From: Chondrosia reniformis
Lineage: Eukaryota > Porifera > Demospongiae > Chondrillida > Chondrillidae
Reading direction: 5' to 3'
NCBI GenBank assembly: GCA_947172415.1
Contig: OX359195.1
Coordinates: 744,001 to 808,000 of the forward strand
Length of the DNA stretch: 64,000 nt
In this document: piece by piece, positions 2,456-59,268 of the stretch
Numbering within the stretch: position 1 is the first letter of the stretch
How the letters are laid out: each line of letters opens with the position of its first letter
Program-made: the position numbers and the translations under genes
Notes under the pieces: model-generated
The model's input: only the letters and a program-made list of their open reading frames with translations
Told to the model about the DNA's origin: nothing
Database searches by the model: none

Positions 2456-5400
2456 GTAACTCTATTTGTAACAAATAATTTTAATAATCAGAAATTTATA
2501 TAATAGGTAGCACAAGTGTATTGTATGGTATTAGAAGAGACTATCTTTATATAGGAATCTGAAGCTTAACATACTGCATCTATATGGTTAGAGAGTTTGT
2601 ATGGAATTTACTTAATTGAAAAATCCACATTTATTGACACATATATTTTAGTTGCATTACTACGTATGTATATATTTTATTCAGTTTAGTCAGATTGTGA
2701 ATGTAATCTTTGTTTTATTGATATAGCTAATGAATCAAAGGTAAAAACCTTTTTGGAAGAGAATCATGATTTTATAAAGTATGAGTGCAATTTCAAGAGA
2801 ATAGCATCTGATCTACTCAATGCCAGAGCAGTCAACCGGGGAGAGTGCGAGAGACTTGATCAGTATCCTTTGGAGGACGCCAACCAGTACATGTTCCTCA
2901 TCCTTCAGAAGGACCCCTCAGTTACAAAGCTGTTAAAAGTAGCCAGTGCACTAGAAAGGGATCTAACACATGATTGTAACCAAAAACTTGCCTCCAGAAT
3001 AAGACAGTTTGCAGGTATGTATGTACTGTATGTTTACATAGGATACAATTTACTGAATATAACTGTAATATAAATATATATTAGGCTAAGGAACATACTA
3101 AGTATAATCTATGAACATACTATTTTACTATACCCTCTAAACAGCAACAAACTTTACCATATTTTGCTAATGCAGGATCAGATATACGTACGTATATACC
3201 CAATTGTATTAAGTCTGTGTAGATATGAGATATAAAGTGTGTATAAAGTGAGCTTTGTGGATGAAGTAAAATTAACTAATTTTTATTTTTGTGTCATTTA
3301 GCAAGTGAATTAAAAGGTAAAACGTTCCTGAATGAAAACCTTGATTTTATAAAGAATGAATGTGACTTCAAAAGAATAGCAACTGATCTTCACAATGCAA
3401 CAGTAGTAGATGACGGAGAATTGGAAACACTGATTCAGTCTCCTAACTATTTGGCTGCCAACCGGTTTATGTATCTCTGCCTTGTGAGGGATCCTTCCAT
3501 TGAGAAGTTATCAAAACTAGCTGAAGTTCTGGAAAGAGACTCAACACATGGATGCCACAAAAGCCTTGCCTGTACAATTAGAAAATTTATCAGTTAGTAT
3601 ACATATGTACATACTTACATACTAAACCTATATAATAATATCAAATCAATCTATAGATATAGTGATTTTTATATCATGATTCCCCCATTAGCTGTGATTA
3701 AACTTATGATCAAAAAACACTTTACAAATGTACTCACTAAGCAGCAATGAACCTCTTCCCTAGGCCTATCTCCCTATATACACACTTACTGGATCCGCTA
3801 TATGTATAGGTAATGAGATATAAAGTGTGTAATTAGATTATTAATGAGATTCCTCTTGATTTGTTGCAGTGTTAACTCTTCTTATACATGTACACTTAGG
3901 TGAACCAGGAGATTTGAATATTCAAACAAGCAGTGAGAGACAGGAACAGGAAAATCAACCATTAACAGTACAAGCTGAGATTCACCAAACAGGACCCAGG
4001 CCACTTAGATACTTAGTTCCTGAACCATCATCACAGCCAAAAGGTTTGTTTCTATTTGTAACAAATAATTTTAATAGTCAGAAATTTATATAATGTACAA
4101 AAATAGGAAACTGAAATATGATTCTGCATCTCTTAGAGATTTATAGCTACAATAAAGGAGTTTGTATATTTTTTGGAATTTACTTAATCGAAAATCCACA
4201 TTTATTGACTTATATTAGTTACAGTACGTGTACACGTGTTATGTCAATTATAGTATCATTAATTTTTTCAGTTTAGTCAGATTGTTAATGTAATCTTTGT
4301 TTTATAGCTAATGTTAAAAGCTCTAAAAGTATATTGTCACCCGAAGAATACGAAGACAGTAAGTTTAACTATGTATGTAATTGTGAAAGTTCACTATTAA
4401 AGTAATAAGAGTAATTAATTTTTATGATTGTAGCCATTTTTGGTACCAAGCAATTGAAATCTCCCAAATCAATTGAGTCACTAGAATTAACAACTTTCTC
4501 TGAGAAACAAAAGATACTTCAGAAGGTATGCATAAGAAAGTTTTAAAAATATGTTGTCATTTTAATTAGTATACGTAGTTACTAGATATTATGTATCAAT
4601 TGCTTTGCTTTGTTAGAGTTCTCTAGTGTCTGGTTCTGAGTCACTGGATCCAAAAGAACCTGGTGACCCCTCCCCTCATGATATAGGTGTGTATATTGTT
4701 GTATGTATGTGTGCAATATATACATATCTCTATGTATATGGAGGACCAAAGTATCCTCATATGTATATAATACTGCTTCCGTTACATTCTCTAATTCACA
4801 GAGCATGAAGAGCGACTAGACCAGCTGTGTTGGATCCCATTTGGGATACAGTCTCTTCAAGTAGACCAAACTGGAGGAAGGTTCAGTTTGGAACCGGAAG
4901 GGGACAGACCAGTGGATAGTGACGTCACTCATCTGGAGATACCAGAGGGAGCTGTTGCTGGGAAGAGGAAGGTGCAGATCAGATATGCAATCATAATGGA
5001 TGGTCCTCTGGTGGCACCAGCTGGTTATAAACTGGCCAGCCCTGTGGTGTATATCCACTACAACAGTAAAGACATCAAGAGTCCCATCACCCTCCACCTT
5101 CCTCACTGGAGTGCAGATGGTGACAAAGTGAAGATGATGATGGCACCTCACTCTCCTGTGAATAAAGAGTTCACATTTGAGGACTATGAAGGGGCAGGTA
5201 ATGGCAGGGTTTTCCTCATCACAGGACACTGCACCCTCTTTACTAAAGCTTCACGTTTAAATGATCCTTTTGAGTATCTTGCTTCTGCTTGGAAGTGGGA
5301 GTCAAAGGATGGCAGTATAACAACACGAATAGCTGCTACTTACAAACATAATGTTTGGATCCAGGTTTGTGTTTTCTTTTTCTATATAGAAATGCTTTCT

Positions 5401-9589: not shown

Positions 9590-12412
9590 ATGTCGACATT
9601 TCGTGATTTCTCCGATCCGAGGTCTTTCTACCCTAGCAATCTCTCTGAATATTGCATTTTGGGAGGAGGGAATGGTACATTTTTCCGAGGAGACGAGTTA
9701 TCACCAGAAATATGGACCTTAACTAATTCACTAGTCGCAACATCATTCGCTTCTCTGGCAATATTCATTATGTTCATCGGCTGCGTTATCAGTAGTCTAG
9801 TATGTGGAGTCGCAACTCGTAACAAAACTCTAAAATCATGGCTGGGTGGCATTTATGTAATTGATATCGTCATCATATTAGTATTGATAGCACTACACAC
9901 ATTCGTGGACCTCTACACCATTGCACAAGGAAATTGGACAATTGGAGGAGATACGAATTGTGAACGTCAGAATGCATGTACTGAAGTGTCAATAGTGATA
10001 GCTTTTTTGATTGGCATTAAGGAATACGTTTTGTTGTGTTTACCTTTGAACTTAATTTTTTTTATTTCTGGAGAAAGTTTTCCCAAGAGCCCTCTTTTTT
10101 CGTTTCTTATGATGATAACCATGACTGCTTTATTTTCCCCCTCTATACTCACATCTCTAGTTTTCTCTTCACTCACTGCATATTTCAATCAAGATCTAGC
10201 TTTTTGTGTGTGGTCTTTGCCAGGCATGATTGCCGTACTTGCATCAGTGTACACCAGCAAATTGCTATTAAAGCCTTTTATCTGGTTATCATTTCGATAT
10301 TTTCTTTCTAATGATCATGATCCTTTCCCAATTATGGTAACTTTACCTCCAATACGAACACTCAAGGAGTTTCCTACTGATATTTTTAAGCATGAAGTGA
10401 CCACAAGTCGTAGGTTATTCTTTTCCACAGAACTGGTATTCTTACTTGTTGAACTAGTACTTTATTTGATTTTACTAACATCAGCCTTTTTTGTAGAACT
10501 GAATGTACAATCAGTACTGACAATGGTACTCGTCCTACTGTGGCTTGTCTGGAGTTGTGTAATAGGACCATTAAAAACTGTTATACACACTCCAATGCAA
10601 AGGAAAACAATAAAGAAATTATATTTGCAGATTAAGAAAGTATTCTCTTGCAGGAAACTAAAGCAAGTTGATCTATCAAATGAACCATTGATTAATAATA
10701 TTGAAAATAGGACAATTATAAATGAATTAAAAGCTGGCTCTGCTGAACAATTAATTGAAACAGGAAATATTGGAATGGAATTTCAAGACCATTCTGACCA
10801 TAACAAATTAAAGACTCCATTAATACTATCATCACAGCATGGTAACACTAACTTGGTAAAGACACTATTACAAGCAGGAGCTGAAGTAGATCAAGTAGTG
10901 GAAGGAGATTTGACAACAGCCCTAGAATATGCTTGTTTCTGTGGACATGGTAGTGTGGTGAAAGTTCTATTGAAGAATGGAAGTAAACCAAATGGAATTG
11001 ATAAATATGGAAAAGCCACAGGGATACCAATAGCTGAGGCAGTGAAACAACATCATGGAAACATTGTTAAAATGTTGTTATTACATGGAGCAGATCCTAA
11101 CATGGTTGATTGTCATTTAGGTGTATCACCTATGAAGTGGGTTACCCAAGAATTTCAGTGGTGCTCACAGAGGTGGTGGTCTTTCAGAAAAGATAGTTTG
11201 TACATATGTGAGCTGTTAGTGAAAGCTGGTGCTAGATTATCAACAATCAATATCGCACATTTAAGGGTTTCGTCATTCTACACTCGTAAATCTGTTGTGG
11301 TAATAGGCAACAGTCATCATGGTAAAACTACTCTTGTAGCTTCATTGAGAAATGAGGCCAGATGCTTAAAGAAATTGGTCAATCGTATAAAAAAGATGAA
11401 TATTATCACAGAACGTACAGCCGGTATTGACACTGTTCCATTTGACAGTAAGAAATATGGCAGAGTGCTGTTCTTTGATTTTGCTGGTCAAGAAGCATAT
11501 CACGGACCTCACCAAGCATTCCTAAGAGCTCTCCTTCCTAGACCAGGAGTGTCACTGAGCTTTTTAATGTTGGTCAAGTCAACAGGTCATGATCCAGAAA
11601 AAAAGTCAACAAATTTAGAAAGTGCAATCCTCAGTCAGTTGAAAAAATGGCTTCAACCATTAATAAGTATTCCCAATGTTCCTCAGAATGTTAAGGTAAA
11701 GGTGATTCTGGTTGGTAGTTTTGCTGATCAACTTTCAGTTGCTAAAAGTGAAGTAGTAACTATGCTTCAAAGATGTTTAGATCAATTTGAGGGAATAGAT
11801 CAAAGCTGGTTGGAATTCAGTAAGCCTTGTGTATTAGACTGTAGGTACTCAGAATCTGCTGGAATTGATTACCTTCGAGATCAGATCAACAGTGTTACCA
11901 GTTATGAGCAGTCTTCGAGTGAAACACGTTATAACCTTCACTGGGTAGTCGCATCAATCAAGGAATCCCATAAGCATCTTGGTGCTGCTTTTCAAGTGAA
12001 GAAATTTCAACAGTGGACTTTGGAAAAACATAATGACTTACCCATCAATCTCCCATCAGCTGATCAGATATGTAGAGATTTAGCTGCTGCTGGTCATGCC
12101 TTGTATTTCCCTAACGAGGAGGATCCAGATGAGAGTTGGCTGGTGTTTGATATACCTACTGTACTGAATGAGATCTATGGCAAACTCTTTTCTCACTTTA
12201 ACAACAACTCTCAAACTAAATATGGTTTAATAAATCAGCATGATCTTCATTCTTTGGTCCCTAAATATGATATTAATCTGATCTGTAATTTGTTTATTTA
12301 TCTTGAATTTTGTCTAAATGTTGACAAAAATCTGTTGAAAGAAGTAGAACTACTTGTTAACACAGCCAATGAAGCCCAAAATGAATGGCTTTTCTTTCCA
12401 TCACTTACCTAA
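9590..12412 (+). CDS. R2 exon 1 up to the premature stop: 7TM, ankyrin, Roc, partial COR
   Basis: A 940-residue open frame with an upstream leader shared with R3 and R6, which supports this Met. Seven hydrophobic segments lie in about the first 330 residues, with sequons NLS and NGT near the N-terminus and NWT between segments 2 and 3. Ankyrin repeats follow, then the P-loop GNSHHGKT, DFAGQE and a COR-like region. An in-frame insertion HDPEKKSTNLE lies after VKSTG, absent from the other copies. From TM7 to the P-loop the nucleotide sequence is nearly identical to R1, which points to recent duplication or gene conversion. Confidence 0.8.
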   Translation: MSTFRDFSDPRSFYPSNLSEYCILGGGNGTFFRGDELSPEIWTLTNSLVATSFASLAIFIMFIGCVISSLVCGVATRNKTLKSWLGGIYVIDIVIILVLIALHTFVDLYTIAQGNWTIGGDTNCERQNACTEVSIVIAFLIGIKEYVLLCLPLNLIFFISGESFPKSPLFSFLMMITMTALFSPSILTSLVFSSLTAYFNQDLAFCVWSLPGMIAVLASVYTSKLLLKPFIWLSFRYFLSNDHDPFPIMVTLPPIRTLKEFPTDIFKHEVTTSRRLFFSTELVFLLVELVLYLILLTSAFFVELNVQSVLTMVLVLLWLVWSCVIGPLKTVIHTPMQRKTIKKLYLQIKKVFSCRKLKQVDLSNEPLINNIENRTIINELKAGSAEQLIETGNIGMEFQDHSDHNKLKTPLILSSQHGNTNLVKTLLQAGAEVDQVVEGDLTTALEYACFCGHGSVVKVLLKNGSKPNGIDKYGKATGIPIAEAVKQHHGNIVKMLLLHGADPNMVDCHLGVSPMKWVTQEFQWCSQRWWSFRKDSLYICELLVKAGARLSTINIAHLRVSSFYTRKSVVVIGNSHHGKTTLVASLRNEARCLKKLVNRIKKMNIITERTAGIDTVPFDSKKYGRVLFFDFAGQEAYHGPHQAFLRALLPRPGVSLSFLMLVKSTGHDPEKKSTNLESAILSQLKKWLQPLISIPNVPQNVKVKVILVGSFADQLSVAKSEVVTMLQRCLDQFEGIDQSWLEFSKPCVLDCRYSESAGIDYLRDQINSVTSYEQSSSETRYNLHWVVASIKESHKHLGAAFQVKKFQQWTLEKHNDLPINLPSADQICRDLAAAGHALYFPNEEDPDESWLVFDIPTVLNEIYGKLFSHFNNNSQTKYGLINQHDLHSLVPKYDINLICNLFIYLEFCLNVDKNLLKEVELLVNTANEAQNEWLFFPSLT

Positions 12413-13037
12413 AGTCAGAAACCAGATCAGCTTTTCAAAGAAGACCAGAGATTCAAAGTGTACATTTGCTGGCAAGTACACACAATGAATGATCAGACAC
12501 TATCTCCTATTGTCCACCAGACAATCCTCCTTCGTCTTGCAGCACACTACGTTTTCAAGCACGACATATCGTCCTCAATTGTTGGGCATTGCTGCAGTCT
12601 CTGGTGCAACGGAATCACGTGGTCTACTATTGAAGGTATCGAGGTTGCTGTTCAGATTGCAGATCAATCACTTGTCCAAGTAGCATGCAGGGGCTTATGT
12701 GAAGCAGAAAAGGTCCTTGACTATCTCTCTCAAATTGCAAAAGATATCTTGAGAACTTGTAGCTCTTTCAATACTGAAGTTGCAGCATATATTATTCACC
12801 ATCCTGATATGCCTGCTGTCAGCAATGATCCTAAGCTAGCTTCAAAGAAGAACATGTATCCAGCTTCAAGTATCTGCACTTCTAGAAAGGAAAAAGGTGA
12901 ATATGTTCTAAGTCTACCACATGAAGAAGTCCAGGTTCCCCCTCCTGTTGCTATGAGTGATGTGTTTGGCTGTATTCCTCAACTTGAAGTACTCCACCAG
13001 CTAACTTTGGGAGCAGCCTCAGATCCCATTTCAAGAG
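12413..13037 (+). pseudogene. R2 exon 1 remainder, downstream of the nonsense codon
   Basis: The same frame continues without further stops to a GTCAGT donor at 13038, in phase 1. It encodes the conserved C-terminal part (VYICWQVHTMNDQTLSPIVH and onwards). Intact coding sense after the TAA suggests a recent lesion or a sequence error rather than long decay. Confidence 0.7.
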
Positions 13038-14128: not shown

Positions 14129-15065
14129 CATCTCAATTTGAGCAGATTGTAGAGAATGGTGTTAACAATTTATCAGAATCTGTTTCAGGTGTGTATATGT
14201 ACATGCTATAGCTGTTTTGTTAGAGTAATTGTACATGTGATTGAACCAATCCATGTACGCATGTTTCTAATATTCAACTTTATAAAGTGAACTTTATGGG
14301 TGAAGTAAAATTAACTAATTTTTATTTTTTGTGTCATTTAGCAAGTGAATCAAAAGGTAAAACGTTCCTGAATGAAAACCATGATTTTATAAAGAATGGC
14401 TGTAACTTCAAAAGAATAGCAACTGATCTTCACAATGCAGGAGTAGTAGATGACGGAGATTTGGAAACACTGCTTCAGTCTCCTAACTATTTGGATGCCA
14501 ACCAGTTTATGTATCTCTGCCTTGTGAGGGATCCTTCCATTGAGAAGTTATCAAAACTAGCTGAAGTTCTGGAAAGAGACTCAACACATGGATGTCACAA
14601 AAGCCTTGCCTGTTCAATAAGAAAATTTATCAGTTAGTATACATACGTACATACTTACATAATACTAAACCTATATAATAATATCAAATCAATCTATAGA
14701 TGTAGTGATTTTTATATTATGATTCCCCATTAGCTGTGATTAAACTTACGATCAAAAACACTTTACAAATGTACTCTCTAAGCAGCAATGAACCTCTTCC
14801 CTAGGCCTATCACCCTATATACACACTTACTGGACCTGCTATATGTATAGTATAGGTAATGAGATATAAAGTGTGTCATTAGATTATATATGAGATTCCT
14901 CTTGATAGGTTACAGTGTTAACTCTTCTTATACATGTACACTTAGGTGAACCAGGAGATTTGAATATTCAAACAAGCAGTGAGAGACAGGAACAGGAAAA
15001 TCAACCATTAACAGTACAAGCTGAGATTCACCCAACAGTTCCTGGACCATCATCACAGCCAAAAG
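14129..15065 (+). CDS. R2 exons 2-4: linker (14129-14188), CARD-like B (14342-14632), module C (14946-15065)
   Basis: The three phase 1-1 exons have the same order and intron sequences as R1 7920-8854. Module B is complete. Module C runs to PSSQPKG and a GTAACT donor, so the gene continues instead of stopping here as R1 does. Confidence 0.6.
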
Positions 15066-27819: not shown

Positions 27820-27951
27820 TTCGATAGCCGAAAACGACTGGCAACACCTCGAATCGCTACGCAACGATACCGGAAATAACGGCCATTTTAATCGGAACGG
27901 CGGACATTTTAAAACCGGAATATTAACAAACGTGGTCACGCGTTATCGTTC

Positions 27952-28172: not shown

Positions 28173-31100
28173 ATGTCGATAATTCATGATTTCTCCGATC
28201 CGAGGTCTTTCTTCCCAAATAATCTCTCTGAATATTGCATTATCGGAAGATATAATGGCACATTTTTCCAAGGAGACGAGTTATCACCAGAAATCTGGAC
28301 CTTAACTAATTCACTAGTTGCAATCTCATTCGCTTTTCTGACAATATTCATTATGTTGATCGGCTGCGTTATCAGTAGTCTTGTCTGTGTAGTCGCAACT
28401 CGTAACAAAGCTCTAATATCATGGCTGGGTGTCATTTATGTATTTGATATCGTCATCATATTAGTATTGATGTCAATGTACACACCAGTGCACCTCTACA
28501 CCATTGCACAAGGAAATTGGACGATTGGAGGAGATACGAACTGTGAACGTCAGAATGCATGTACTGCAGTGTCAACAGCAATAGCTTTTTTGATTATCAT
28601 TAAGGAAAACGCTTTGCTATGTTTGCCTTTGAACTTAATTTTTTTTATTTCTAAAGAAAGTTTTCCCGGGAGACCTGTTTTTTCATCCATTGTTTTATTA
28701 ATCTGTTCTGTTTCTTTTTCCCTCTCTATTACCTTATCTATACTTTACTCTTTACGCACTGCATATTTCAATCAAGATCTAGCTTTTTGTGTGTGGTCTT
28801 TGCCAGGCATGATTGTCATGTTTGCATCGATGTACATCGGAAAATTGCTATATAAGCCTAATATCTGGGTTTCATTTCGATTACTTTCTGATGATCGTAA
28901 TTCTTCCCCATTTATGATAACCTTACCTCCAATACGAACACTCAAAGAGTTTCCTACTGATATTATTAAGCATGAATTGACCAAAAGTCGTAGGTTATTC
29001 TTTTCCACAGAACTGGTATTCTTACTTGTTGAATTAGTACTTTATTTGATTTTACTAGTACCAGCCTTTTTTGTAGAACTGAATGTACAATCAGTACTGA
29101 CAATGGTACTCGTCCTACTGTGGCTTGTTTGGAGTTGTGTAATAGGACCTTTAAAAACTGTTATACACACTCCAATGCAAAGGAAAGTGATAAAGAATTT
29201 ATATTTGCAGATAAAGAAAATATTCTCTTGCAGGCAAGGCAGAGTTGATCTATTAAATGAACCATTGATTATTGAAAATAAGACAATTATAAATCATTTA
29301 AAAGATGGTAAATTAGCTGCAGTTGAACAACTAATAGAAACAGGAAATATTGGAATGGAATTTCAGGACCAATTAGACCATAACAAATTAAAGACTCCAT
29401 TAATACTATCATCACAGCATGGCAACACTAACTTGGTAAAGACACTATTACAAGCTGGAGCTGAAGTAGATCAAGTGGTGGAAGGAGATTTGACAACAGC
29501 TCTAGAATATGCTTGCTTCTATGGACATGATAGCGTGGTGAAAGTTCTATTGAAGAATGGAAGTAAACCAAATGGAAATGATAAATATGGAAAAGCAACA
29601 GGAATACCACTAGCGGAGGCAGTGAAACGACATCATGGTAACATTGTTAAAATGTTGTTATTACATGGAGCAGATCCTAACATGATTGATTGTCATTTAG
29701 GGGCTACACCTATGAAGTGGGTTACCCGACAGAGGTGGTGGTACAATAGGAGAGATAGTATGCACATTTCGGGGCTCTTGCTGAAAGCTGGGGCTGTTTT
29801 ATCTACAAAGGGTCTTATGACAAGACCAGAGATTAATAAACGTTTACATTTCAGGAAGTGTTTGTCATTCTACACTCGTAAATCGGTTGTGGTAATAGGC
29901 AACAGTTATCATGGTAAAACTACTCTTGTAGCTTCGTTGAGAAATGAGGGTAGATGCTTAAAGAAATTGGTCAATCATATAATAAAGATGAATATTATCA
30001 CAAGACGTACAGCCGGTATTGACACTGTTCGATTTGACAGTAAGAAATATGGCCGAGTGCTGTTCTTTGATTTTGCTGGTCAAGAAGCATATCACGGACC
30101 TCACCAAGCATTTCTAAGAGCTCTCCTTCCTAGACCAGGAGTGTCACTAAGCTTTTTAATGTTGGTCAAGTCAACAGATTCAGAAAGTACAATCCTCAGT
30201 CAGTTGAAGAGATGGCTTCAACCATTAATAAGCATTCCCAATGTTCCTGAGAATGTTAAAGTAAAGATGATTCTGGTTGGTAGCTTTGCTGATCAACTTT
30301 CAGTTGCTAAAAGTGAAGTATTAACTATGCTTCAAAGATGTCTAGATCAAATTAAAGGAATAGATCAAAACTGGTTGGAATTCAGTAAGCCTTGTGTATT
30401 AGACTGTAGGTATCCAGAATCTGCTGGAATTGATTACCTTCGAGATCAGATTAACAGTGTTACCAGTTATGAGCAGTCATCAAATGGAACAGGTTATAAC
30501 CTTCACTGGGTAGTCGCATCAATCAAGGAATCCCATCTTGGTCCTACTTTTCAAGTGATAAAATTTCATCAGTGGACTTTGGAAAAACGTAATGACTTAC
30601 CCATCAATCTCCCATCAGCTGATAAGATATGTAGAGATTTAGCTGCTGCTGGTCATGCCTTGTATTTCCCTAACGAGGAAGATCGAGATGAGAGTTGGCT
30701 GGTGTTTGATATCCCTACTGTACTGAATGAGATCTATGGCAAGCTCTTTTCTCACTTTATCAATAATGAAAACTCTCAAACTAAATATGGTTTAATAAAT
30801 CAGCATGATCTTCATTCTCTGATCCCTAACTATGAAATTAATCTGATCTGTAACTTGTTACTTAATCTTGAATTTTGTCTCAAGGTTGACAAAAATCTGT
30901 TAAAAGAAGTAGAACTACTTGTTAACACAACCAATGGAGCCCAAAATGAATGGCTTTTCTTTCCATCACTTACCAAAAGTCAGAAACCAGATCAAGTTTT
31001 CAAAGAAGACCAGAAATTCAAAGTGTACATTTGCTGGCAAGTACACACAATGAATGATCAGACACTATCTCCTATTGTCCACCAGACAATCCTCCTTCGT

Positions 31101-31605
31101 CTTGCAGCACACCACGTTTTCAAGCATGAAACATCTTTAATTGTTGGGCATTGCTGCAGTCTCTGGTACAACGGAATCACGTGGTCTACTATTGAAGGTA
31201 TTGAGGTTGCTGTTCAGATTGCAGATCAATCGCTGGTCCAGGTAGCTTGCAGAGGCTTATGTGAAGCAGAAAAAGTCCTTGACTATCTCTCGCAAATTGC
31301 ACAAGATATCTTGATAATTTGTAGCTCTTTCAAAACTGAAGTTGAAGCATATATTATTCACCATCCTGATATGCCTGCTGTCAGCAATGATCCTAAGATA
31401 GCTTCAAAGAAGAACATGTATCCAGCTTCAAGTATCTGCACTTCTAGAAAGAAAAATAAGGAATGTATTTTAAGTCTACCACATGAAGAAGACCATGTTC
31501 CCTCTCCTGTTGCTATGAAAGAGGTGTTTGGTTGTATACCTCAACTTGAAGTACTCCGGCAGCTAACGGCAGTCACAGTTCCTGGACCATCATCACAGCC
31601 AAAAG
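28173..31605 (+). CDS. R3 exon 1: 7TM, ankyrin repeats, Roc GTPase, COR-like region
   Basis: It encodes 1144 residues plus one base. Predicted membrane segments lie near residues 47-75, 83-105, 131-159, 169-193, 203-226, 274-301 and 307-331. Sequons N17, N28 and N115 and cysteines C124 and C130 all fall in parts predicted outside; basic loops (TRNK, SKES, HELTKSRR, MQRK) fall inside. This gives an N-out, C-in topology like a GPCR. Ankyrin repeats occupy about 407-545. Roc has GNSYHGKT (576-583), DFAGQE (633-638), VGSFADQ near 702 and CRYPESAG near 746; the G4 position is SFAD instead of NKxD. COR-like sequence follows to about 1000. The start is supported by the leader shared with R2 and R6. 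No GPCR family signature (DRY, NPxxY) was seen. Confidence 0.85.
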
Positions 31606-33757
31606 GTAACTCTTTTTGTAACAAATAATTTTAAATAATCAGAAATTTATATATTATGGAGCACAAGTGTATAATATTAGAAGAGACCATCTTTAGATAC
31701 TTTAGGAGTCTAAAGTGTAACATATATGATTCTGCATCTATATATATACATAGCTAGAGATTTATAGCTATATAGAATATATATATATTTTCGGCCATCC
31801 CTACTTAGAGAGTACTGCCGTATACACTCTCTGATATGCCTTTGTAAATTTTTCTGGTCCAGGAATTTATTTGTATATATAATACTAAAATTGACATACA
31901 TATAATTACATACGTATGTACATTTTTGATTAAGTAATTTTTTTCAGTTTAGTCAGATTGTGAAAGTATAATCTTTGTTGTATTGATATAGCTAATAAAT
32001 CAAAGGTTAAAACCTTTTTGGAAGAGAATCACGATTTTATAAAGTATGAGTGCAATTTCAAGAGAATAGCAACTGATCTACTCAGTGCCCGAGCAGTCAA
32101 CCGAGGAGAGTGTGAGAGACTTGATCAGCATCCCTTGGAGGACGCCAACCAGTACATGTTCCTCATCCTTCAGGAGGACCCCTCAGTTACAAAGCTGTTA
32201 AAAGTAGCCAATGCACTAGAAAAGGATCCAACACATGATTGTAACCAAGAACTTGCCTCCAGAATAAGACAGTTTGCAGGTATGTACGTATCTACTGTAT
32301 GGCTACATGTAGGATACAATGTACTGTTATATATATATATATCTATATATATATAAATAGATGAGGCTATGTTTGGGCACATCGATCTCTACTTCTAGTG
32401 ATGCGCCCAAACATAGAAGTGATGTGTATAGTTAAGTTTCAGTATGCCACTTCTGCAATGTTAGCCTTACCATATAATCACTGTCTTGTTTCGTTACTTT
32501 TTTAGACGTGCCAATCACTGTTATAGTGCCATCCCTACTTTTAACTTCATTTTTGGGGCTGCGGCGCCCCTATATTGTTTTCAGAAATTATGTTAACATA
32601 TGGCTTCCTGTTTGTAACCTTGTATTATACAGTACAAGTTACAAACTATAATATATGCGTCACCAAAATGGCGGACGTTCGGCTGGCTTTCGTTTTCTAG
32701 CTTAAAACTAGCTTTCTCTTCCTTAGCGTCGAGCATTAAACGAACGAAAACGATTTAGAAACCACCTTTACTAATACTATGTAACGTAAAGCCTGCGTAA
32801 AAACGTTTTCTATGAGATATAACCTTGACAAATTAAAGGCCATCAAGCGACGACCGGATGCGGTTCACCGGACATCTATGAACTATGTATAAGCCAAGTG
32901 GTTCGAGTTTTAAACTCGAACTTCTTGTTTTTGAATGTTTTTATTTATAACTTGTATATATACTTATATGAGGCTAAGGAACATACTAAGAATAATGTAG
33001 TGACCATACTATTTTACTAAACAGCAGCAAACTTTACCATATACATCTCACTAACACAAAATCATATAGAGATATATATATTCCACTTGAATACTTGAAC
33101 TATAATGCACCACCTCCAAACTTGGTGCTTGTGTATGACTGTCTGGGAAGTGCGGCCTGGTAGCCTTAAGTGGTGAGGGCTTAATGCACCCAGGCAGTTG
33201 GGCTATGTACCTGGGCGGACAGGCCTGGTAGCCTTAGTGGCAATGGTTATATTACATATCCAGGTATATGGCCCTGTGCCCTTTACCCACAACTGGTTTG
33301 CATTTAGTACACATTACCTGTAAACATGTGCTTGGGCACTTTAATAATGATAATACCCAATTGTATAAGTCTGTTAGAACACAATCTGGTAAAAGTTTAC
33401 ATGAAGTATTCAGAATTTGGGTCATTTTCAGCTGTTACTTGTATACAAAATGTACAAATTTGTACCCTTTCAATATAAAACTGTATACACTTGTACAAGA
33501 AACAGCTGCAAATTCTGAATAGCTGCTGATTTTAAGGGATTATACCAGATTGTCACATAGGTAATGAGATATAAAGTGTGTCATTAGATATATGAGATTC
33601 CTCTTGATAGGTTGTAGTGTTAACTCTTCTTATACATGTACACTTAGGTGAACCAGGAGATTTGGATATTCAAACAAGTAGTGAGAGACAGGAACAGGAA
33701 AATGAACCATTAACATTAACAGTACAAGCTGAGATTCACCAAGCTGGCCACAATTAG
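28173..33757 (+). CDS. R3: receptor-ROCO gene with one CARD-like module
   Basis: Three exons: 28173-31605, 31992-32279 (module A, 96 codons) and 33648-33757 (terminal module C, TAG). All junctions are phase 1. No internal stop or frameshift was found, so this is the simplest apparently intact member: 7TM, ankyrin, Roc, COR-like, CARD-like. Its upstream block is split from the gene by the P-type transposon, so expression may be altered. The second intron carries an inserted element at 32370-32967. Confidence 0.75.
31992..32279 (+). CDS. R3 module A exon: CARD-like domain
   Basis: Phase 1-1, 96 codons, between GATATAG and GTATGT. Near-identical to the R1, R4 and R5 copies; the conserved core FKRIATDLLSARAVNRGECE is present and no stop interrupts it. 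Confidence 0.65.
32370..32967 (+). mobile_element. 598-bp insertion flanked by a 9-bp direct repeat
   Basis: ATGAGGCTA occurs at 32361-32369 and 32968-32976; the other paralogous introns have it once (near 3081 and 42041). The insert starts with a hairpin (TATGTTTGGGC against GCCCAAACATA), has no coding potential, and ends in TATTTATAACTTG. It contains CGAGTTTTAAACTCGAACTT; similar sequence is near 51775-51830. Probably a non-autonomous element of unknown class. Confidence 0.6.
32977..33647 (+). other. Rest of R3 intron 2
   Basis: Non-coding. It holds two copies of a GGCCTGGTAGCCTTA motif (33147 and 33226) and a pair of TTTGCATTTAG/CTGTTACTTGTATAC-like inverted stretches. No gene supported. 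Confidence 0.35.
33648..33757 (+). CDS. R3 terminal module C exon
   Basis: Starts after CACTTAG and ends at TAG 33755-33757. A six-base direct duplication (ATTAAC) adds two residues compared with other copies. Confidence 0.6.
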
Positions 33758-35124: not shown

Positions 35125-38100
35125 ATGTCGAATTATTCCGACCGGAGGAATTTCTCCGTAAACAATGTACTGGAAAATTGCGATATTATTGGAGTTGATT
35201 ACGGCACAGATGAGTTATCTCCAGAAATTTGGATCACTACTAATTCTCTAGTCGCAACCTCATTCGCTTCTCTGGCAATATTCATTATGTTGATCGGCTG
35301 CGTTATCAGTAGTCTAGTATGTGGAGTCGCAACTCTTAACAAAGCTCTAAAATCATGGCTGGGTGTCTCTTATGTGATTGACCTCACCTTCGCTGTGGTA
35401 TTGATGTCAATATACACACCAGTGCACCTCTACACCATTACACAGGGAAATTGGACGATTGGAGGAGATACGAATTGCGAACGTCATGGTGCATGTACTG
35501 CAATGTCAACAGTAATATTAAGTTTGATATTCAATAAGGAAATCGCTTTGTTCTTATCCACTCTTGATCCCAATTTTATTTTTCCTGCAAATAAGGGTCC
35601 GCATATATATGTTTTGGGTTTTATTATTGGCATTGTTTCTTTCATTCACTTTGTTCCCTTTTATTCCTTCGTCTCATACTTCAATCAAGATCTAGCTCTT
35701 TGTGTGTGGTTTTTTGGTGGTATGATTTTCTTATTTGCCGTAATGTACTTTTCTAAATTAGCGCTGATTTTTACGAACTGGTTTGCAATTGGATCATTTT
35801 ATCCTGAATTCAGCAACCTACGTAGCAAATATACGTCTACGTCTAAGTTAGCTCGGGATCCAATACGAGCGCTCCAGGCGTATCCGGCTGCTATTATTAA
35901 GAAAAAATGGAACAAAAGGCGTAGGTTCTTCATTATCGCAGAAATGATACTTTTACACGTGGAACTTGCACTTCGCTTGATTTTACTAGTACCAGCATAT
36001 CATGTAGAACTGAATGTACAATCAGTACTGACAATGGTACTCGTCCTACTGTGGCTCGTCTGGAGTTGTGTAATATCACCATTAAGAACTATTGTACATA
36101 CTCCAATGCAAAGGAAAACGATAAAAAAATTGTATTTTCAGCTCAAGGAGATATTATTACTTTGTGGCAAACGAAAAATAGAAAGATTTGACCTTGTACT
36201 TGAACCATTGAGTATTGAAACAATTTTAAAAGATGGCAATTTAGCAACTATTGAACAACTAATACAAACAGGAGATATTCAATTGGTGTTTCAGGACCGT
36301 TTACACCATAACAAATTTAAGACTGCATTAATACTATCATCACAGCATGGTAACACTAACTTGGTAAAAACACTATTACAAGCAGGAGCCGAAGTAGATC
36401 AAGTAGTGGAAGGAAATTTGACAACAGCTCTAGAATATGCTTGTTTCTATGGACATGATAGTGTGGTGAAAGTTCTATTGAAGAATGGAAGTAAACCAAA
36501 TGGAAATGATAAATATGGAAAAGCCACAGGAATACCACTAGCTGAGGCAGTTAGAAGATGTCATGGAAACATTGTTAAAATGTTGTTATTACATGGAGCA
36601 GATCCTAACATGGTTGATTGTCATTTAGGTTTGTCACCTATGGAGTGGGTTACCCGACAGAGGTGGTGGTACAATATGAGAGATAGTAAGCATATTTCGG
36701 CGCTCTTGCTGAAAGCTGGGGCTGTATTTTCTACAAAGGGTGCTAAGACAAGAGAAGAGATTGATATACTTTTACATTTTAGAGAGTTTTTGTCATTCTG
36801 CACTCATAAATCTGTTGTGGTAATAGGTAACAGTCATCATGGTAAAACTACTCTTGTAGCTTCATTGAGAAATGAGGGCAGATGCTTAAAGAAATTGGTC
36901 AATCGTATAAAAAAGATGAATATTATCACAGAACGTACAGCCGGTATTGACACTGTTCCATTTGACAGCAAGAAATATGGCAGAGTGCTGTTCTTTGATT
37001 TTGCTGGTCAAGAAGCATATCACGGACCTCACCAAGCATTCCTAAGAGCTCTCCTTCCCAGACCAGGCGTATCACTGAGCTTTTTAATGTTGGTCAAGTC
37101 AACAGACTCAGAAAGTACAATCCTCAGTCAGTTGAAAAGATGGCTTCAACCATTAATAAGCATTCCTAATGTTCCTGAGAATGTTAAGGTAAAGGTGATT
37201 CTGGTTGGTAGTTTTGCTGATCAACTTTCAGTTGCTAAAAGTGAAGTATTAACTACGCTTCAAAGATGTCTAGATCAAATTAAAGGAAGAGATCAAAACT
37301 GGTTGGAATTTGGTAAGCCTTGTGTATTAGACTGTAGGTACTCAGAATCTGCTGGAATTGATTACCTTCGAGATCAGATCAGCAGTGTTACCAGTTATGA
37401 GCAGTCTTCAATTGAAACAGGTTATAACCTTCACTGGGTAGTCGCATCAATTAAGGAATCATTTAAACAACTTGGTCCTGCTTTTCAAATAAAGAAATTT
37501 AAATGGAGGATCCAGACTTTGGAAAAACATAATGACTTACCCATCAATCTCCCATCAGCAGATCAGATTTGTAGAGATTTAGCTGCCACTGGTCATGCCT
37601 TGTATTTCCCTAATGAGGAAGATCCAGATGAGAGTTGGCTGGTGTTTGATATACCTATTGTATTGAATAAGATCTATGGCAAGTTCTTTTCTCACTTTAT
37701 CAATAACAACAACTCTCAAACTACATATGGTTTAATAAATCGGCATGATCTTCATTCTTTGGTCCCTAACTATGATATTAATCTGATCTGTAACTTGTTA
37801 ATTTATCTTGAATTTTGTCTTAAAGTTGACGTACGTCTGTTGAAAGAGGTAGAACTACTTGTTAACACAGCCAATGGAGCCCAAAATGAATGGCTTTTCT
37901 TTCCATCACTTACACAAAGTCCGAAACCAGATCAAGTTTTCAGAGCAGACAAGAGATTCAAAGTGTACATCTGCTGGCAAATACACACAATGAATGATCA
38001 GACACTATCTCCTATTGTCCACCAGACAATCCTCCTTCGTCTTGCTGCACACCATGTTTTCAAGCATGAAATATCATCTACAAAGGTTGAGCACTGCTGC

Positions 38101-38557
38101 ATTCTCTGGTACAATGGAATCACGTGGCTCACTGATGAAGATATTGATGTTGCTGTTCAGATTGCAGATCAATCACTGCTCCAGATAGCTTGTAGGGGCT
38201 TATGTGAAGCCGAAAAAGTCCTTGATTATCTCTCTCAAATTGCACAAGAAATCTTGAAGACTTGTAGCTCTTTCAAAATTGAAGTTACACCATATATTAT
38301 TCACCATCCTGATATGCCTGCTGTCAGCAATGATCCTAAGCTAGCTTCAAAGAAGAACATGTATCCAGCTTCAAGCATCTACACTTCTAGAAAGAAAAAT
38401 AGGAAATGTATTCTAAGTCTACCACATGAAGAAGACCATGTTCCCTCTCCTGTTGCTAGGAGCTATATGAGTGAGGTATTTGGCTGTGTTCCTCAACTTG
38501 AAGTACTCAAGCAGCTAACGGCAGTCACAGTCCCTGGACCATCACCACAGCCAAAAG
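35125..38557 (+). CDS. R4 exon 1: 7TM (second subtype), ankyrin, Roc, COR-like
   Basis: It encodes 1144 residues starting MSNYSDRRNFSVNNVLENC. Membrane segments 1 and 7 match the other subtype closely (SLVATSFASLAIFIMLIGCV; SVLTMVLVLLWLVWSCVI). Segments 3 to 5 and their loops are strongly different. The loop GNWTIGGDTNCE is kept, with its sequon and cysteine. Ankyrin repeats, P-loop GNSHHGKT and DFAGQE are intact. It is closest to R5. The leader ATTGAAATATGTCG differs from R2/R3/R6, in line with a separate subtype. Confidence 0.85.
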
Positions 38558-41500: not shown

Positions 41501-44500
41501 ATATGTCAATTTTAGTACATGTTACTTTGGGTCCTATTATTCTGCTTTTCATACTTTATTAAGACATTAAAAAGACCATGTACTACATTAATTAGTTATA
41601 ATTATACAAAAAATAGTATTACTGTATATGGAAAAATATTTTTTTCAGTTTAGTCAGATTGTAAATGCATATAATCTTTGTTTTATTGATATAGCTTATG
41701 AATCAAAGGTTAAAACCTTTTTAGAAGAGAATCATGATTTTATAAAGTATGAGTGCAATTTCAAGAGAATAGCATCTGATCTACTCAATGCCAGAGCAGT
41801 CAACCAGGGAGAGTGCGAGAGACTTGATCAGGAGGACGCCAACCAGTACATGTTCCTCATCCTTCAGAAGGACCCCTCAGTTACAAAACTGTTAAAAGTA
41901 GCCAGTGCACTAGAAAGCGATCCAACACATGATTGTAACCAAAAACTTGCCTCCAGAATAAGACAGTTTGCAGGTATGTATGTACTATATGTTTACATAA
42001 GATACAATGTAGTGAATATATATAACCCTTTTATATAGATATATGAGGCTAAGAAACATACTAAGTATAATGTAGTGATAAGGGGTACTTGTACATGTTG
42101 CAATCATTATGATAGAGAAATTATTTGAGCAATCAGCAAATAAAACACTTCTTTAAAACAAAGACTAAAACGTTTCGACCCGTGGGTCTTCATCAGTTAG
42201 GATTCTACACTGCAAAAAAAGAGCATTAAAACAACCAGACAAGGTTAAAATAACCCAATTTCTCCATTGTTAAAACAACAATTAGAAGTGTAGAAATAAC
42301 CACACATGGTTGTATTAGGAATTTATGGTTAATTTAATAAAAAGACTCTTAATGGCTAAGAGGTGGGTTGTTTCTACCACTATAATATTGGTTGTTTTAA
42401 CAACATTATATAGGAGGTTAATACAAACTTTACTCCCCATTTAAATTAAAGACTGTCTGTGTCATTTTAAATACTTTATATGTTAATTCTACTAGAATGA
42501 AATGTTAAAATGAATTAATCTATATATATACTATATAATATAAAATATATACATTGTAAAAAAGTGTGGTGAACGTCACTGTCAAAGATTGTGAGGATAC
42601 AGTTTTCTGGTGAGGATTACCACCTTCTGCTGTAATGATACATTTTTGTGGTGATGTTCACTACAAATGATATCATGATTATATAGTCTGTCCTGTATGC
42701 AGGAATGTGACCCGAGCGAGCACGTGCCACGTGAGGCCTGCAATGAGGGAACACACCATTTCTCCCATACTTTTGCATCCCATATAACTATATATATTTT
42801 TATTTCTGTATATATGAAATAAATGAACTTATGATTTTTTTTAGTATTTTGTATTGTAGAATTAAATATTATTTCATACCTGAAACAATGTTGATTCCTT
42901 CAACCGGGGTACAGCAGTAGAGTGACCGACAAACTTTCAAGACATTCTGATTTTACGAATTATATCAATACCACTTTAACAGTGTACAAAACGAAAGCAT
43001 GACCAATTGATAATGAAATTGCAGCATGCATGCAGTTGCCTCACACATACTTAATAATAAAGTGGTAAAGTGATGTACAATTGTTTATCTGTACAAATGA
43101 AGGTGCGTTTTGCATACAGTGGGCGGTAATGGGGAAGAACATTCATTGGCATGGCTACATGAGCAGAGGTACACTTGATAACGTAAGAGTGAAAGTGAGT
43201 ATCAAAAAATTCGGATGAAAATACTTGAAATGAGAAAATGACAGTATCATTAACAACAACAATGTCAAGCACTTTCCCAAACTCGGGTGACATTGGATCA
43301 TAATGCAGCAACAAGTACACCCCTTTACGGTAGAGTGAAGAGTGAATTTTTACCCAATTTGGGTGTTCAACCATAGAGCCATCATTCATTGTGGGAAAAA
43401 GTGTCAAAATTTCTCTTCTGACATGCTCTGCTTCAACTTGTAGTGCATAAATGGTTTTCTTGGGACTTGACTCAAAGGCAGTATGAAGGTAAGGACGTTC
43501 GGAATGTACCTTATAACATTGCCACAGTTGGTGCTTCTTAGCAACTGTTTTGGCCACATTTTTGAAATTGCTACGTCTAGAAGCCCTCTTAACAAAGCTT
43601 AGTTTTGACTCTTGACGCATTGTCCATGAGTGAATAAGTGGACCAAACATTTCAATCTGTGATGGATAATGGACCATGTAATGAAATTTTGGAATAATCC
43701 GGAACTCAGGATACAACTGCTTGAAATCAGTCAACTTCTCTTCAATCAGAAGTCTGAGATACGCAATGGTATCATATGTGCAGGTAGTAGACACTGCAAT
43801 GCTGCATATTCTAAGAAGCAGTAGGAACGACACCCAGTTCTTGTCACCTTCTGGAACTTTATCGCCAATGATGAGGGGGAAATTGAAACATAGGGCCAAC
43901 ATTTGCGATGCACTTTGGCGAATACGAATTGGCTGCTCCTGAAGGGAAGATGGCTTATCACAAATAAAATCAAAGGAGTCTATTCTTTCATTCAACAGTT
44001 TAACTGAGAAGTATTTCTGCTGCACACAATGGGAAATGAGACATTTCATCTCATAGGGCACAACTCCTTCAAACAGGTCATGCATAATGTCATGAGGAAG
44101 GCTGGTCGCTACTGAAAACCCAGGAACATCTTCTAATACTGAATATCGATTAATGCCAAAATTAGTTGAGTAGTGACTTTTCAAGGGTCCTTCCAACAAC
44201 CGACATTGTTGAAAGTGTGTTTCAGGGCAACGTAATTGGCAATTATCTTCCGTCACACACAACTGACTTTGATCAGTTGTGATCATGCAACTCCTACAGA
44301 TTCGCAAAGCAAATGACATGCTTTCTTTGAAACCTCCTACAGCATGTGCTGCCAGATTGTCTGCTAAAAATGCAAGTAGTCCTCCAAAAAAGGTACGTGT
44401 TTCACAGCCAATTGTGATAGGAATGCCATCACAAAATAGAGCTTTCAAGTCGTCAACAAAAGGTGACATAAAAGTATCCATTCCATATTTGCAAATATCT

Positions 44501-53341: not shown

Positions 53342-56300
53342 ATGTCGAATTATTCCGATCCGAGGTATTTCGCTGCAAACAATGTACTGGAAAATTGCGT
53401 TGCTGGCGTCGATAACGTCACAGTTGAATTGTCTCCAGAAATTTGGATCGCTACAGATTCACTAGTCGCAACCTCATTCGCTTCTCTGGCAATATTCATC
53501 ATGTTGATCGGCTGCGTTATCAGTAGTCTTGTCTGTGGAGTCGCAATTCGTAACAAAGCTCTAAAATCATTTCTGGGTGTCTCTTATGTGATTGACCTCA
53601 TCTTCGCTGTGGTATTGATGTCAATATACACACCAGTGCACCTCTACACAATTGTACAAGGAAATTGGACGATTGGAGGAGATACGAATTGTGAACGTCA
53701 TGATGCATGTATTGCAGTGGCATCAGTAATACTGATTTTGATATTCAATAAGGAAATCGCTTTGTCCTTTTCGACTCTTGATCCCAATTTCTTTATTCCT
53801 GCAGAGGGATCGACAAGCTATTATTGCATAGGTATAATGGCAGCAGTTTTATCCGCTGGTTTTATACCCGTATATTTCATCTTCACATACTTCAATCAAG
53901 ATCTAGCTTTTTGTGTGTGGTCTTTGCCAGGCATGATAATCCTATTTGCTTTCATGTACTTCTTTAATTTTTTTATTATTATTGCGAATTGGTTTGCGAT
54001 TGCATCAGTTTATCCTGAATATACTCTCCTACGTGACGAACTTACCTTTAATTTAGCTCCAATACGAGCCCTCCAGGTGTTTCCGGCTGCTATTATTGAG
54101 TATAAATGGAATAGAAGGCGTAGGTTCTTCATTATAGCAGAAGTGATACTTTTTCATGTGGAACTTGCTCTTCGCTTGATTTTACTAGTTCCGGCATATC
54201 ATGTAGAACTAAATGTACAATCTGTACTAACAATGGTCTTTATTCTACTGTGGCTTGTCTGGAGTTGTGTAATAGGACCATTAAGAACTGTTATACACAC
54301 TCCAATGCAAAGGAAAACGATAAAGAAATTACTCAAGAAGATATTATTTTGTGGCAAACGAAAACTAGACAGAGTTGTCCTTGTACTTGAACCACTGAGT
54401 GTTGAAACAATTATAAAAGATGGCAATTTAGCGACTATTGAACAACTAATAGAATCAGGAGATATTCAATTGGTGTTTCAGGACCGTTTAGACCATAACA
54501 AATTAAAGACTCCATTAATACTATCATCACAGCATGGCAACACTAACTTGGTAGAAGCACTATTACAAGCAGGAGCTGAAGTAGATCAAGTAGTGGAAGG
54601 AGATTTGACAACAGCTCTAGAATATGCTTGTTTCTATGGACATGATAGCGTGGTGAAGGTTCTATTGAAGAATGGAAGTAAACCGAATGGAATTGATAAA
54701 AATGGAAAAGCTACAGGAATACCACTAGCTGAGGGAGTGAAACGATGTCATGGAAACATTATTAAAATGCTGTTATTGCATGGAGCAGATCCTAACATGG
54801 TTGATTGTCATTTATGTTTGTCACCTATGAAGTGGGTTACCCGACAGAGGTGGTGGTACAATAGGAGAGATAATATGCATATTTGGAGGCTCTTGCTGAA
54901 AGCTGGGGCTGTATTTTCTACAAAGGGTGCTAAGACAAGAGAAGAGATTAATATACTTTTACACTTTAGAAAGTTTTTGTCATTCTACACTCGTAAATCT
55001 GTTGTGGTAATAGGCAACAGTCATCATGGTAAAACTACTCTTGTAGCTTCGTTGAGAAATGAGGGCAGATGCTTAAAGAAATTGGTCAATCGTATAAAAA
55101 AGATAAATATTATTACAGAACGTACAGCTGGTATTGACACTGTTCCATTTGACAGCAAGAAATATGGCAGAGTGCTGTTCTTTGATTTTGCTGGTCAAGA
55201 AGCATATCACGGACCTCACCAAGCATTCCTAAGAGCTCTCCTTCCTAGACCAGGATTGTCACTGAGCTTTTTAATGTTGGTCAAGTCAACAGATCCAGAA
55301 AGTACAATCCTCAGTCAGTTGAAAAGATGGCTTCAACCATTAATAGGTATTCCCAATGTTCCTCAAAATGTTAAAGTAAAGGTGATTCTGGTTGGTAGTT
55401 TTGCTGATCAACTTACAGTTGCCAAAAGTGAAGTATTAACTATGCTTCAAAGATGTCTAGATCAAATTGAAGTAAGAGATCAAAACTGGTTGGAATTCAG
55501 TAAGCCTTGTGTATTAGACTGTAGGTACTCAGAATCTGCTGGAATTGATTACCTTCGAGATCAGATCAACAGTGTTACCAGTTATGAGCAGTCTTCAATT
55601 GAAACAGGTTATAACCTTCACTGGGTAGTCGCATCAATCAAGGAATCCCATAAGGATCTTGGTGCTGCTTTTCAAGTGATGAAATTTAAATGGTGGACTT
55701 TGGAAACACTTAATGACTTACCCATCAATCTCCCATCAGCTGATCAGATTTGTAGAGATTTAGCTGCGGCTGGATATGCCTTGTATTTCCCTAACGAGGA
55801 AGATCCAGATGAGAGTTGCCTGGTGTTTGATATACCTACTGTACTGAATGAGATCTATGGCAAACTCTTTTCTCACTTTATCAATAACAACAACTCTCAA
55901 ACTAAATATGGTTTAATAAATCTCAATGATCTTAAGTGTCTGATCCCTAACTATGAAATTAATCTGATCTGTAACTTGTTACTTAATCTTGAATTTTGTC
56001 TAAAAGTTGACAAAAATCTGTTGAAAGCAGTAGAACTACTTGTTAACACAGCCAATGAAGCCCAAAATAAATGGCTTTTCTTTCCATCACTTACCCAAAC
56101 TCAGAAACCAGATCAAGTTTTCAGAGCAGACAAGAGATTCAAAGTGTACATTTGCTGGCAAGTACACACAATGAATAATCAGACACTATCTCCTATTGTC
56201 CATCAGACAATCCTCCTTCGTCTTGCTGCACATTACGTTTTCAAGCATGAAACATCTTCAATTGTTGGGCATTGCTGCATTCTCTGGTACAACGGAATCA

Positions 56301-59240: not shown

Positions 59241-59268
59241 ATGTATAATCTTTGTTTTACTGATAGAG

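Follow-up and report, generated by a model that had tools for sequence, protein, structure and literature searches.

CARD sensors of the Apaf-1, CED-4, NLR and RIG-I type hold a sensor, a nucleotide switch and a CARD in one chain. GPCR-bigrams join a seven-transmembrane (7TM) G-protein-coupled receptor (GPCR) part to an intracellular catalytic domain, and GPCR-PIPK, GPCR-TKL, GPCR-AC and others are among the kinds listed in excerpts of a review (van den Hoogen and Govers 2018, PMC6033456). A choanoflagellate catalogue (PMC12716839, in part) records GPCR-TKL/K and, in sponges as well, GPCR-TK and GPCR-PIPK, and the whole word 'Roc' has no occurrence in its available text. ROCO proteins with CARD and death domains are described from Trichoplax in the accessible passages of PMC4104024 and PMC11378527, and according to the same part of PMC4104024 the C-terminal domains of most Ectocarpus ROCOs have homologues in other ROCOs or in transmembrane proteins; the word 'GPCR' does not occur in the brown-alga ROCO paper. 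Here we describe a gene on the plus strand of a 64,000-nucleotide stretch of the sponge Chondrosia reniformis (GenBank GCA_947172415.1, contig OX359195.1, positions 744,001 to 808,000; C7:744001-808000 in our numbering), which is called the window throughout. With its first exon at 28173..31605 and a CARD exon behind it, the gene appears to encode one chain of a seven-span GPCR-related part, ankyrin repeats, an LRRK2-type GTPase and a CARD; the fusion, the family, the domain identities, the splice phase, the GPCR kinship and the absence of coupling motifs are all read from sequence.

The predicted protein resembles the GPCR-bigrams in that an N-terminal seven-span receptor and an intracellular catalytic signalling domain stand in a single chain, one open exon encoding both the 7TM part and Roc; unlike theirs, its accessory part is Ank-Roc-COR plus CARD, that is, a GTPase and an assembly domain, and no kinase, lipid or nucleotide enzyme. 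With the Apaf-1, CED-4, NLR and RIG-I sensors it shares the combination of sensor, nucleotide switch and CARD, but its switch would be Roc-COR instead of NB-ARC, NACHT or helicase, and its sensor a 7TM part in the membrane. Ank-8TM-Ank-Roc-COR proteins also carry a multi-span module in an Ank-Roc-COR chain, and some are 34-37% identical in local BLAST alignments to P0014, a relative of the divergent C3 locus described below; unlike in the present gene, their module lies between ankyrin stretches and, where aligned, has no match to the 7TM profile, and those placed in the Roc-COR tree fall in a separate part of it. The Roc-COR tandem with ankyrin repeats preceding Roc is shared with ROCO proteins (LRRK1/2, DAPK1, MASL1), and the CARD is of the kind found around Roc-COR in Trichoplax, so far as the excerpts go; the N-terminal seven-span receptor domain sets the gene apart from ROCO proteins, and the Ectocarpus layout in the accessible part of PMC4104024 is different. 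Compared with the sponge rhodopsin-family GPCRs of an Amphimedon survey (PMC4302439, in part), the 7TM part, remotely related to the 7tm_1 proteins L064 and L066 of the Chondrosia genome, lacks the coupling motifs and has its effector fused; ankyrin and Roc have no occurrences in the available text of that survey.

Among the matches listed at title and abstract level in the open-licence literature, there was no report of a 7TM-Ank-Roc-COR or 7TM-Roc-COR-CARD protein, and this negative extends to the word content of the accessible parts of PMC12716839, PMC4302439, PMC11378527, PMC4104024, PMC8242945 and PMC8195603. The initial annotation had regarded the architecture as one that could not be named from the literature. 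This is fair for the exact combination, although GPCR-bigrams and CARD-bearing ROCOs were already known, as the partial sources above describe. Judged by its sequence, the protein is built to work in the manner of a GPCR-bigram. Its domains make it a ROCO protein, and it is related to GPCRs without having all class A features.

The open reading frame (ORF) at 28173..31628 (+) is open from ATG to TAA over 1151 codons. The end given in the initial annotation, 31605, coincides with a splice donor (AAAAG|GTAACT at 31605/31606), which recurs in the copies with ORF ends at 2478, 38580 and 56758. What the ORF adds past this donor, its final seven codons, is probably read-through into the intron, and the gene probably continues into the CARD exon. 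Exon 1 (28173..31605, 1144 codons plus one base, phase 1) indeed holds the 7TM part, ankyrin repeats, Roc and COR without interruption, as annotated. Residues 1-345 (28173..29207) comprise the N-terminus and the seven-span domain, which is class-A-GPCR-related by hydropathy, charges, profile matches and motif columns. They are followed by ankyrin repeats at about residues 365-545 (29265..29807), a Roc GTPase at about residues 565-755 (29865..30437; GNSYHGKT, RTAGI, DFAGQE and GSFADQ; Pfam and Foldseek) and a COR-type region at residues 756-1144 (30438..31604; Foldseek). As the window sits on an 8.46 Mb contig in a 117 Mb genome, a bacterial or symbiont origin was dropped. The genome searched has 117,379,552 bases in 15 contigs; the published description of the assembly, in the part available, gives 117.37 Mb, 14 chromosomes and a mitochondrial genome (PMC12181767).

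Pfam Ank_2 matched residues 378-470 (E 1.4e-16) and Pfam Roc matched residues 572-685 at 30.6 bits against a cut-off of 27 (E 4.3e-7), in agreement with the ankyrin repeats and the GNSYHGKT and DFAGQE motifs annotated before. G1 and G3 are intact in the 28173 copy, and G3 is altered in the divergent members on contigs C1 and C13. From GNSYHGKT and DFAGQE, GTP binding and hydrolysis by Roc are putative. No Pfam COR model was listed at E<=1. In a Foldseek search with the full model, LRRK2 (8fo7) ranked first (E 9.9e-11) and a Roco COR structure (3dpt) fourth (E 6.8e-8), so that the predicted fold puts a COR directly after Roc and it is the fold that carries the COR-like region of the initial annotation. 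With 10-residue means of mostly 60-92, the AlphaFold2 model was fair to good in much of the ankyrin stretch, Roc and COR, and it was weak at Roc residues 601-660 (means 42-57). It should be pointed out that in VIA-align the matches to the full model were taken up by ankyrin chains, and Roc and COR were barely tested there.

Seven hydrophobic peaks were found in the 28173 copy at residues 56-74, 81-99, 133-151, 173-191, 204-222, 281-299 and 307-325, as had been annotated, together with an extra weak peak (1.38) at residue 647 inside the Roc part. At a Kyte-Doolittle mean of 1.4, seven peaks were present in all five copies that have an N-terminus in the window; an eighth was seen in the 53342 copy at 1.39, and at 1.6 just six remained in the 61133 copy. 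When the seven strongest peaks were used as spans, a model with the N-terminus outside (N-out) left 4 lysines and arginines in the outer loops and 20 in the inner loops of the 28173 copy, and 2-4 outside and 17-22 inside across the five window copies. The basic inner loops annotated earlier are thereby borne out, and hydropathy and charge bias point to seven spans with N-out topology, as in class A receptors. The sequons N17, N28 and N115 and the Cys130/Cys206 pair fall on the outer side of this model, as had been claimed; there is one more sequon, N243, and this one lies on the inner side. Pfam gave no credible family for the membrane part, the best match being TraL_transposon (E 0.007, under the cut-off) in the 61133 copy. 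The structure prediction and Foldseek search proposed in the initial annotation yielded the Roc-COR fold and no usable model of the membrane part, where the 10-residue means of AlphaFold2 (full-length P0002, 17 rows) were 24-53; no fold is therefore claimed for it.

The kinship of the membrane part was approached by sequence. A genome search with residues 1-352 gave 13 matches at E<=1, namely the array described below with one remnant, two loci on C1, one on C13, and two free receptors at C7:1635844-1636812 (L063, a seven-span frame of 385 aa, E 2.4e-6) and C9:7077893 (L064, 462 aa, E 2.3e-5). With the C1 domain as query, another free receptor at C9:7111113 (L066) was added. L064 is matched by Pfam 7tm_1 at 121.3 bits. 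Of the 16 7tm_1 places in the genome, the two on C9, L064 and L066, are the first and the third in rank; L063 has no credible Pfam match. Profile A3, made of seven family rows, was run against 203 sequences (open frames of loci, and proteins) plus the same 203 reversed; it found L063 at 6.3e-24, L064 at 1.3e-11 and L066 at 4.9e-8, against 0.029 for the best reversed control, and the adhesion receptors of the set were not listed at E<=10. In hhalign, the 7TM family scored 98.8% with L063 and 95.9% with the pair L064/L066 (residues 35-154), compared with 0.4% against five adhesion GPCRs, 0.2-0.4% against the Ank-8TM-Ank regions and just 1.4%, through a PIR-L-P motif, against the C3-type membrane part. 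L063 against L064/L066 gave 94.7%. A signature G-x-W..T-[ND]-C-x-R..C at extracellular loop (ECL) 1 and transmembrane helix (TM) 3, together with a Cys in ECL2, is common to these sequences. By sequence, the membrane part is a remote relative of the class A GPCRs, or 7tm_1 proteins, of the same genome, and L063 is a candidate for the parental receptor type, intermediate between the fused and the class A receptors.

Other searches bear on the reach of this result. Within HMMER's filters, no Pfam 7tm family was found in nine members at E<=10, and a search of the Protein Data Bank (PDB) with profile A3 gave 0 matches. A protein-collection search with membrane profile A2 at E<=10, in which proteins of about 190-615 residues were considered and the best 7,996 by word sharing were scored, returned four family members and no free receptor; the free relatives turned up solely in the sponge's own genome. 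Adhesion (7tm_2) and cAMP-receptor-like parents were considered and rejected, as their 95 and 3 genome places include none in the array and the adhesion hhalign value was 0.4%. Two tandem clusters with nearly full 7tm_2 matches lie elsewhere, at C8:4710665-4758008 and C12:7225873-7244398 (frames of 707-766 aa, one with a TAA). Foldseek matches to GPCR crystal entries (7b6w, 6z4q and others; root-mean-square deviation 22-28) were also dropped as GPCR evidence. These entries are presumably DARPin fusions, and the VIA-align match to 6zin, an NTSR1 entry, pairs chain residues 380-538 with model residues 367-778. This is the ankyrin part, and matches of the 7b6w and 6z4q type were therefore not used.

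The positions that matter for receptor structure and coupling are named here by the usual GPCR numbering, in which R3.50 belongs to the DRY motif and N7.49, P7.50 and Y7.53 to NPxxY. The 28173 copy retains Cys130 at the start of TM3 and Cys206 in ECL2. Eight of nine array-type rows keep both Cys 3.25 and the ECL2 cysteine, and so do L016, L018 and the free receptors; a tyrosine replaces Cys 3.25 in the 61133 copy. The coupling motifs have fared differently. The 28173 copy has no DRY arginine and reads GPLKT at the NPxxY place. Over the 11 fused rows of the motif alignment (C3-type rows left out; TM6 is its least certain column), R3.50 is replaced by L, P, F or S and N7.49 by G, S, R or T, and D2.50, N1.50 and W6.48 are absent; P7.50 is retained except in L018. 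Tyr 7.53 is absent in the fused rows and likewise in L064 and L066, which retain DR and NP, and the free L063 is also without R3.50 and N7.49. As the coupling motifs are missing, coupling to a heterotrimeric G protein is not to be assumed. The label GPCR-like in the initial annotation is thus right by descent, given the profile matches to 7tm_1 proteins, but not with regard to the coupling motifs.

Behind the donor, a predicted intron of phase 1 with GT...AG borders was read directly at 31606..31991 (+); compared with what follows the donor in the 53342 copy, it aligns at its ends only. The predicted exon 2 (31992..32279, +) has 96 codons in phase 1-1 and the donor GCAG|GTATGT. It is predicted to form a helical death fold with a broken helix 1 that is nearest to CARDs, the best fold match being the Apaf-1 CARD. 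None of the Pfam death-fold families was found in the seven CARD exons of the window; among six other copies scanned, the L016 copy alone gave weak CARD and Dark_CARD matches (E 0.08). By sequence, splice sites and phase fit a junction of exon 1 to the CARD exon. COR and CARD stand in one open frame in 5 of the 10 loci tested (L024, L025, L028, L029 and L030), and CARD places lie 0.4-0.6 kb past the family matches on C13, C3 and C1. The initial annotation had envisaged additional death-fold adaptors. A death fold does lie nearby, but from sequence it is probably a CARD encoded by the gene's own following exon, and not a separate adaptor. The CARD family occupies at least 150 genome places (150 of 333 candidates were scored), many of them on C7 and C10; it is an expansion in this genome whose scanned copies Pfam leaves unnamed. 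Peptidase_C14 has 19 genome places, which are possible partners. The Ank-Roc-COR protein P0044 has a weak C-terminal Death match (E 0.003, under the cut-off), and the effector end may thus be exchanged between death folds.

The gene belongs to a tandem array. The window holds six copies with the Ank-Roc layout (1-2478 partial, 9590, 28173, 35125, 53342 and 61133), the five that start inside the window have the membrane part, start codons align across the array, and exon 1 is unbroken in the 28173, 35125 and 53342 copies. A genome search with the 1151-aa query, in which the best 40 of 290 candidates were scored and counts are lower bounds, found further frames at C13:4319802 (907 aa), C1:2940000 (889 aa), C1:2927909 (822 aa) and C3:6857053 (1175 aa). 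The matches on C13 and at the first C1 locus, with 33-37% identity, begin ahead of the first span at residue 6 or 7. Seven peaks each were counted in the membrane part of the C13 frame and of both C1 frames, and the similarity of the C1 and C13 frames to the 28173 protein stops near residue 866. The C3 frame, scanned without its start (1045 and 1097 aa; L017 and P0015), has six peaks, and its relatives P0013 and P0014 have seven and nine; P0015 and the C3 locus are identical over 1045 residues, and P0007-P0009 and P0012-P0014 are 81-91% identical to their best loci. Many more Ank-Roc-COR places match just from about residue 371 onward. A chance open frame was rejected and the fusion is not taken to be accidental, because frame and layout recur in the window copies and on C1, C13 and C3.

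In a tree of 49 Roc-COR rows, the 10 rows bearing a 7TM part fall on one side of a branch with support 99/98, but long-branch attraction may be at work between L016 and L018. This tree was built without the array copies L010 and L013-L015, the partial loci L020 and L033, L001-L008 and most other proteins. The grouping of the 7TM rows points to one fusion event, after which, as the sequences suggest, the gene spread and was duplicated in tandem. The Ank-8TM-Ank-Roc-COR proteins P0019, P0045, P0046, P0048-P0054, P0056 and P0057 show another layout of a membrane-bound ROCO protein. Ahead of the P-loop they have 6 to 11 hydrophobic segments, which are flanked by ankyrin stretches where scanned (all but P0054). 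Eight of them form a separate part of the tree with two lineages, and none of the nine membrane regions aligned matches the 7TM profile.

Selection was estimated from pooled pairwise ratios of nonsynonymous to synonymous change (dN/dS) in four copies (28173, 35125, 53342, and 9590 to residue 938); the values are counts with no test of positive selection. The ratio was 0.32 in Roc, 0.44 in the ankyrin part and 0.40-0.58 in COR. It was 0.34-0.48 in the N-terminus, TM1, ECL1, ECL2/TM5, TM6-TM7 and the linker (helix 8/linker 0.41), and 0.84-1.38 in intracellular loop (ICL) 1/TM2, TM3, TM4 and ICL3. Synonymous divergence in the 7TM part was 0.34-0.51 in five of six pairs and 0.13 in the sixth, compared with 0.09-0.17 in Roc. 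The higher synonymous divergence of the 7TM part suggests that gene conversion has homogenised the effector half. At sequence level, the pattern is that the membrane part varies and the signalling part joined to it is more homogeneous.

With somewhat better than even confidence, we read the gene as a single-chain receptor of the plasma membrane, running from 7TM through ankyrin and Roc-COR to a spliced CARD, that triggers a cell-death or immune response. For this reading we infer the transcript, the topology, GTP hydrolysis, a ligand and CARD recruitment. The N-terminus would be extracellular, and a ligand, another cue or the state of the membrane would shift the conformation of the 7TM part. 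Given the layout, helix 8 and the ankyrin stack could relay this change to Roc-COR. ROCO proteins change nucleotide state and dimerise, and by analogy the nucleotide and dimer state of Roc-COR may gate the exposure and clustering of the CARD. CARDs cluster and recruit CARD partners, and the clustered CARDs would then recruit CARD-bearing caspases or adaptors and so lead to cell death or an immune response. With DRY and NPxxY gone, the Roc GTPase in cis on balance probably takes the place of the heterotrimeric G protein. More tentatively, and short of an even chance, these genes may represent a sponge receptor class in which a GPCR-derived sensor uses its own Roc-COR in place of heterotrimeric G proteins and assembles CARDs directly, tandem-duplicated and with a fast-evolving membrane part.

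The missing motifs bear most directly on a receptor that is fused in the same way but signals through the usual heterotrimeric G protein or arrestin, its Roc-COR being a scaffold or pseudo-GTPase. The GPCR kinship of the 7TM part and the altered G3 of the C1 and C13 members speak for such coupling. So does the free L063, which lacks R3.50 and N7.49 without any fusion; the loss is thus independent of the fusion and not readable as its result, and this weighs against the replacement of the G protein by Roc. On the other side stand the absence of R3.50, N7.49, D2.50 and N1.50 from the 11 fused rows, whereas L064 and L066 keep DR and NP, and the low dN/dS of Roc (0.32) together with intact G1 and G3 in the 28173 copy. 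We therefore regard classical coupling as unlikely.

The nature of the seven-span region itself could be doubted, since no credible Pfam family and no usable fold were obtained for it, and other ROCO relatives, the Ank-8TM-Ank-Roc-COR proteins, carry unrelated multi-span regions. That it is such a non-GPCR module is nevertheless very unlikely in view of the profile matches to 7tm_1 proteins and the common ECL1/TM3 motif and ECL2 Cys, while the 8TM regions have no profile match (0.2-0.4%). Equally improbable is a division of the membrane part and Ank-Roc-COR between different transcripts, for example by an internal promoter or a missed intron: the chain is known here from DNA alone and P0011 (926 aa) starts inside the membrane part, but P0011 corresponds to the apparently broken copy 1, the array and the loci on C1, C3 and C13 all preserve the frame across the junction, array start codons align, and dN/dS of helix 8/linker is 0.41. 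Least probable of all is an array of decaying duplicates with no present function. Stops or frame breaks in three of the six window copies and transposase remnants between copies would fit decay, but three copies have an unbroken exon 1, related loci lie on three other contigs, and the pooled dN/dS values are 0.32 for Roc and 0.34-0.40 for TM1, ECL1 and TM6-TM7.

Should the protein be produced in the form that the DNA implies, sensing at the surface of a sponge cell would be tied directly to a cell-death or immune signal. The single-chain receptor would join families that are usually studied apart, namely GPCRs, ROCO GTPases (LRRK2, DAPK1) and CARD assemblies, and would provide a case in which a receptor of GPCR kinship may no longer be linked to a G protein. 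It would also be a natural construct that reads receptor state as Roc-COR activity, so that the control of ROCO proteins becomes directly testable. As a duplicated, membrane-bound receptor class, it could serve a possible recognition repertoire of a symbiont-rich animal. In effect one polypeptide may even unite a GPCR with an inflammasome-like platform, a suggestion that we hold with less than even confidence.

The remaining copies of the array are all on the plus strand. The 5' part of copy 1 lies before the window; within it, copy 1 covers 1..2478 and appears broken, its N-terminal piece standing in another frame with one TAA. It is followed by a CARD exon at 2727..3014 (+), 91% identical to exon 2 of the 28173 gene, and by a second CARD exon of terminal type at 3302..3597 (+), which is 55% identical and ends in TAG. 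Copy 2 (9590..13036, +) is open to 12412, where an in-frame TAA follows residue 940, with similarity continuing to 13036; a terminal-type CARD exon lies behind it at 14342..14637 (+). In copy 4 (35125..38557, +) exon 1 is intact to the donor, and the nearest CARD exon is 3.1 kb downstream at 41695..41973 (+). Copy 5 (53342..56735, +) is likewise intact to the donor and has its CARD exon at 57049..57336 (+). Copy 6 (61133..64000, +) runs out of the window and has a frame break near 63430 in an A run.

Fragments were also found between the copies. A copy remnant without exon 1 consists of a COR C-terminal piece at 7303-7413 and a terminal-type CARD exon at 8140-8433 (+), and other remnants are the start of a membrane part (residues 1-31) at 22572-22664 (+) and a truncated CARD exon at 59268-59438 (+). 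Transposase remnants comprise a TNP-like RNase H at 24741-25685 (+), a P-element C-terminal domain at 26830-27939 (-) and a tnp2-like piece at 43051-44820 (-), the last under the cut-off. An Rfam scan of the window gave 0 matches. A ZU5 frame over the cut-off (Pfam E 1.2e-4) lies behind the CARD exons of copy 1 at 4795-5409 (+). Two frames at 15127-16108 (+) look death-fold-like by eye, with a hydrophobic frame following at 16902-17180; they are possibly a separate death-fold gene.

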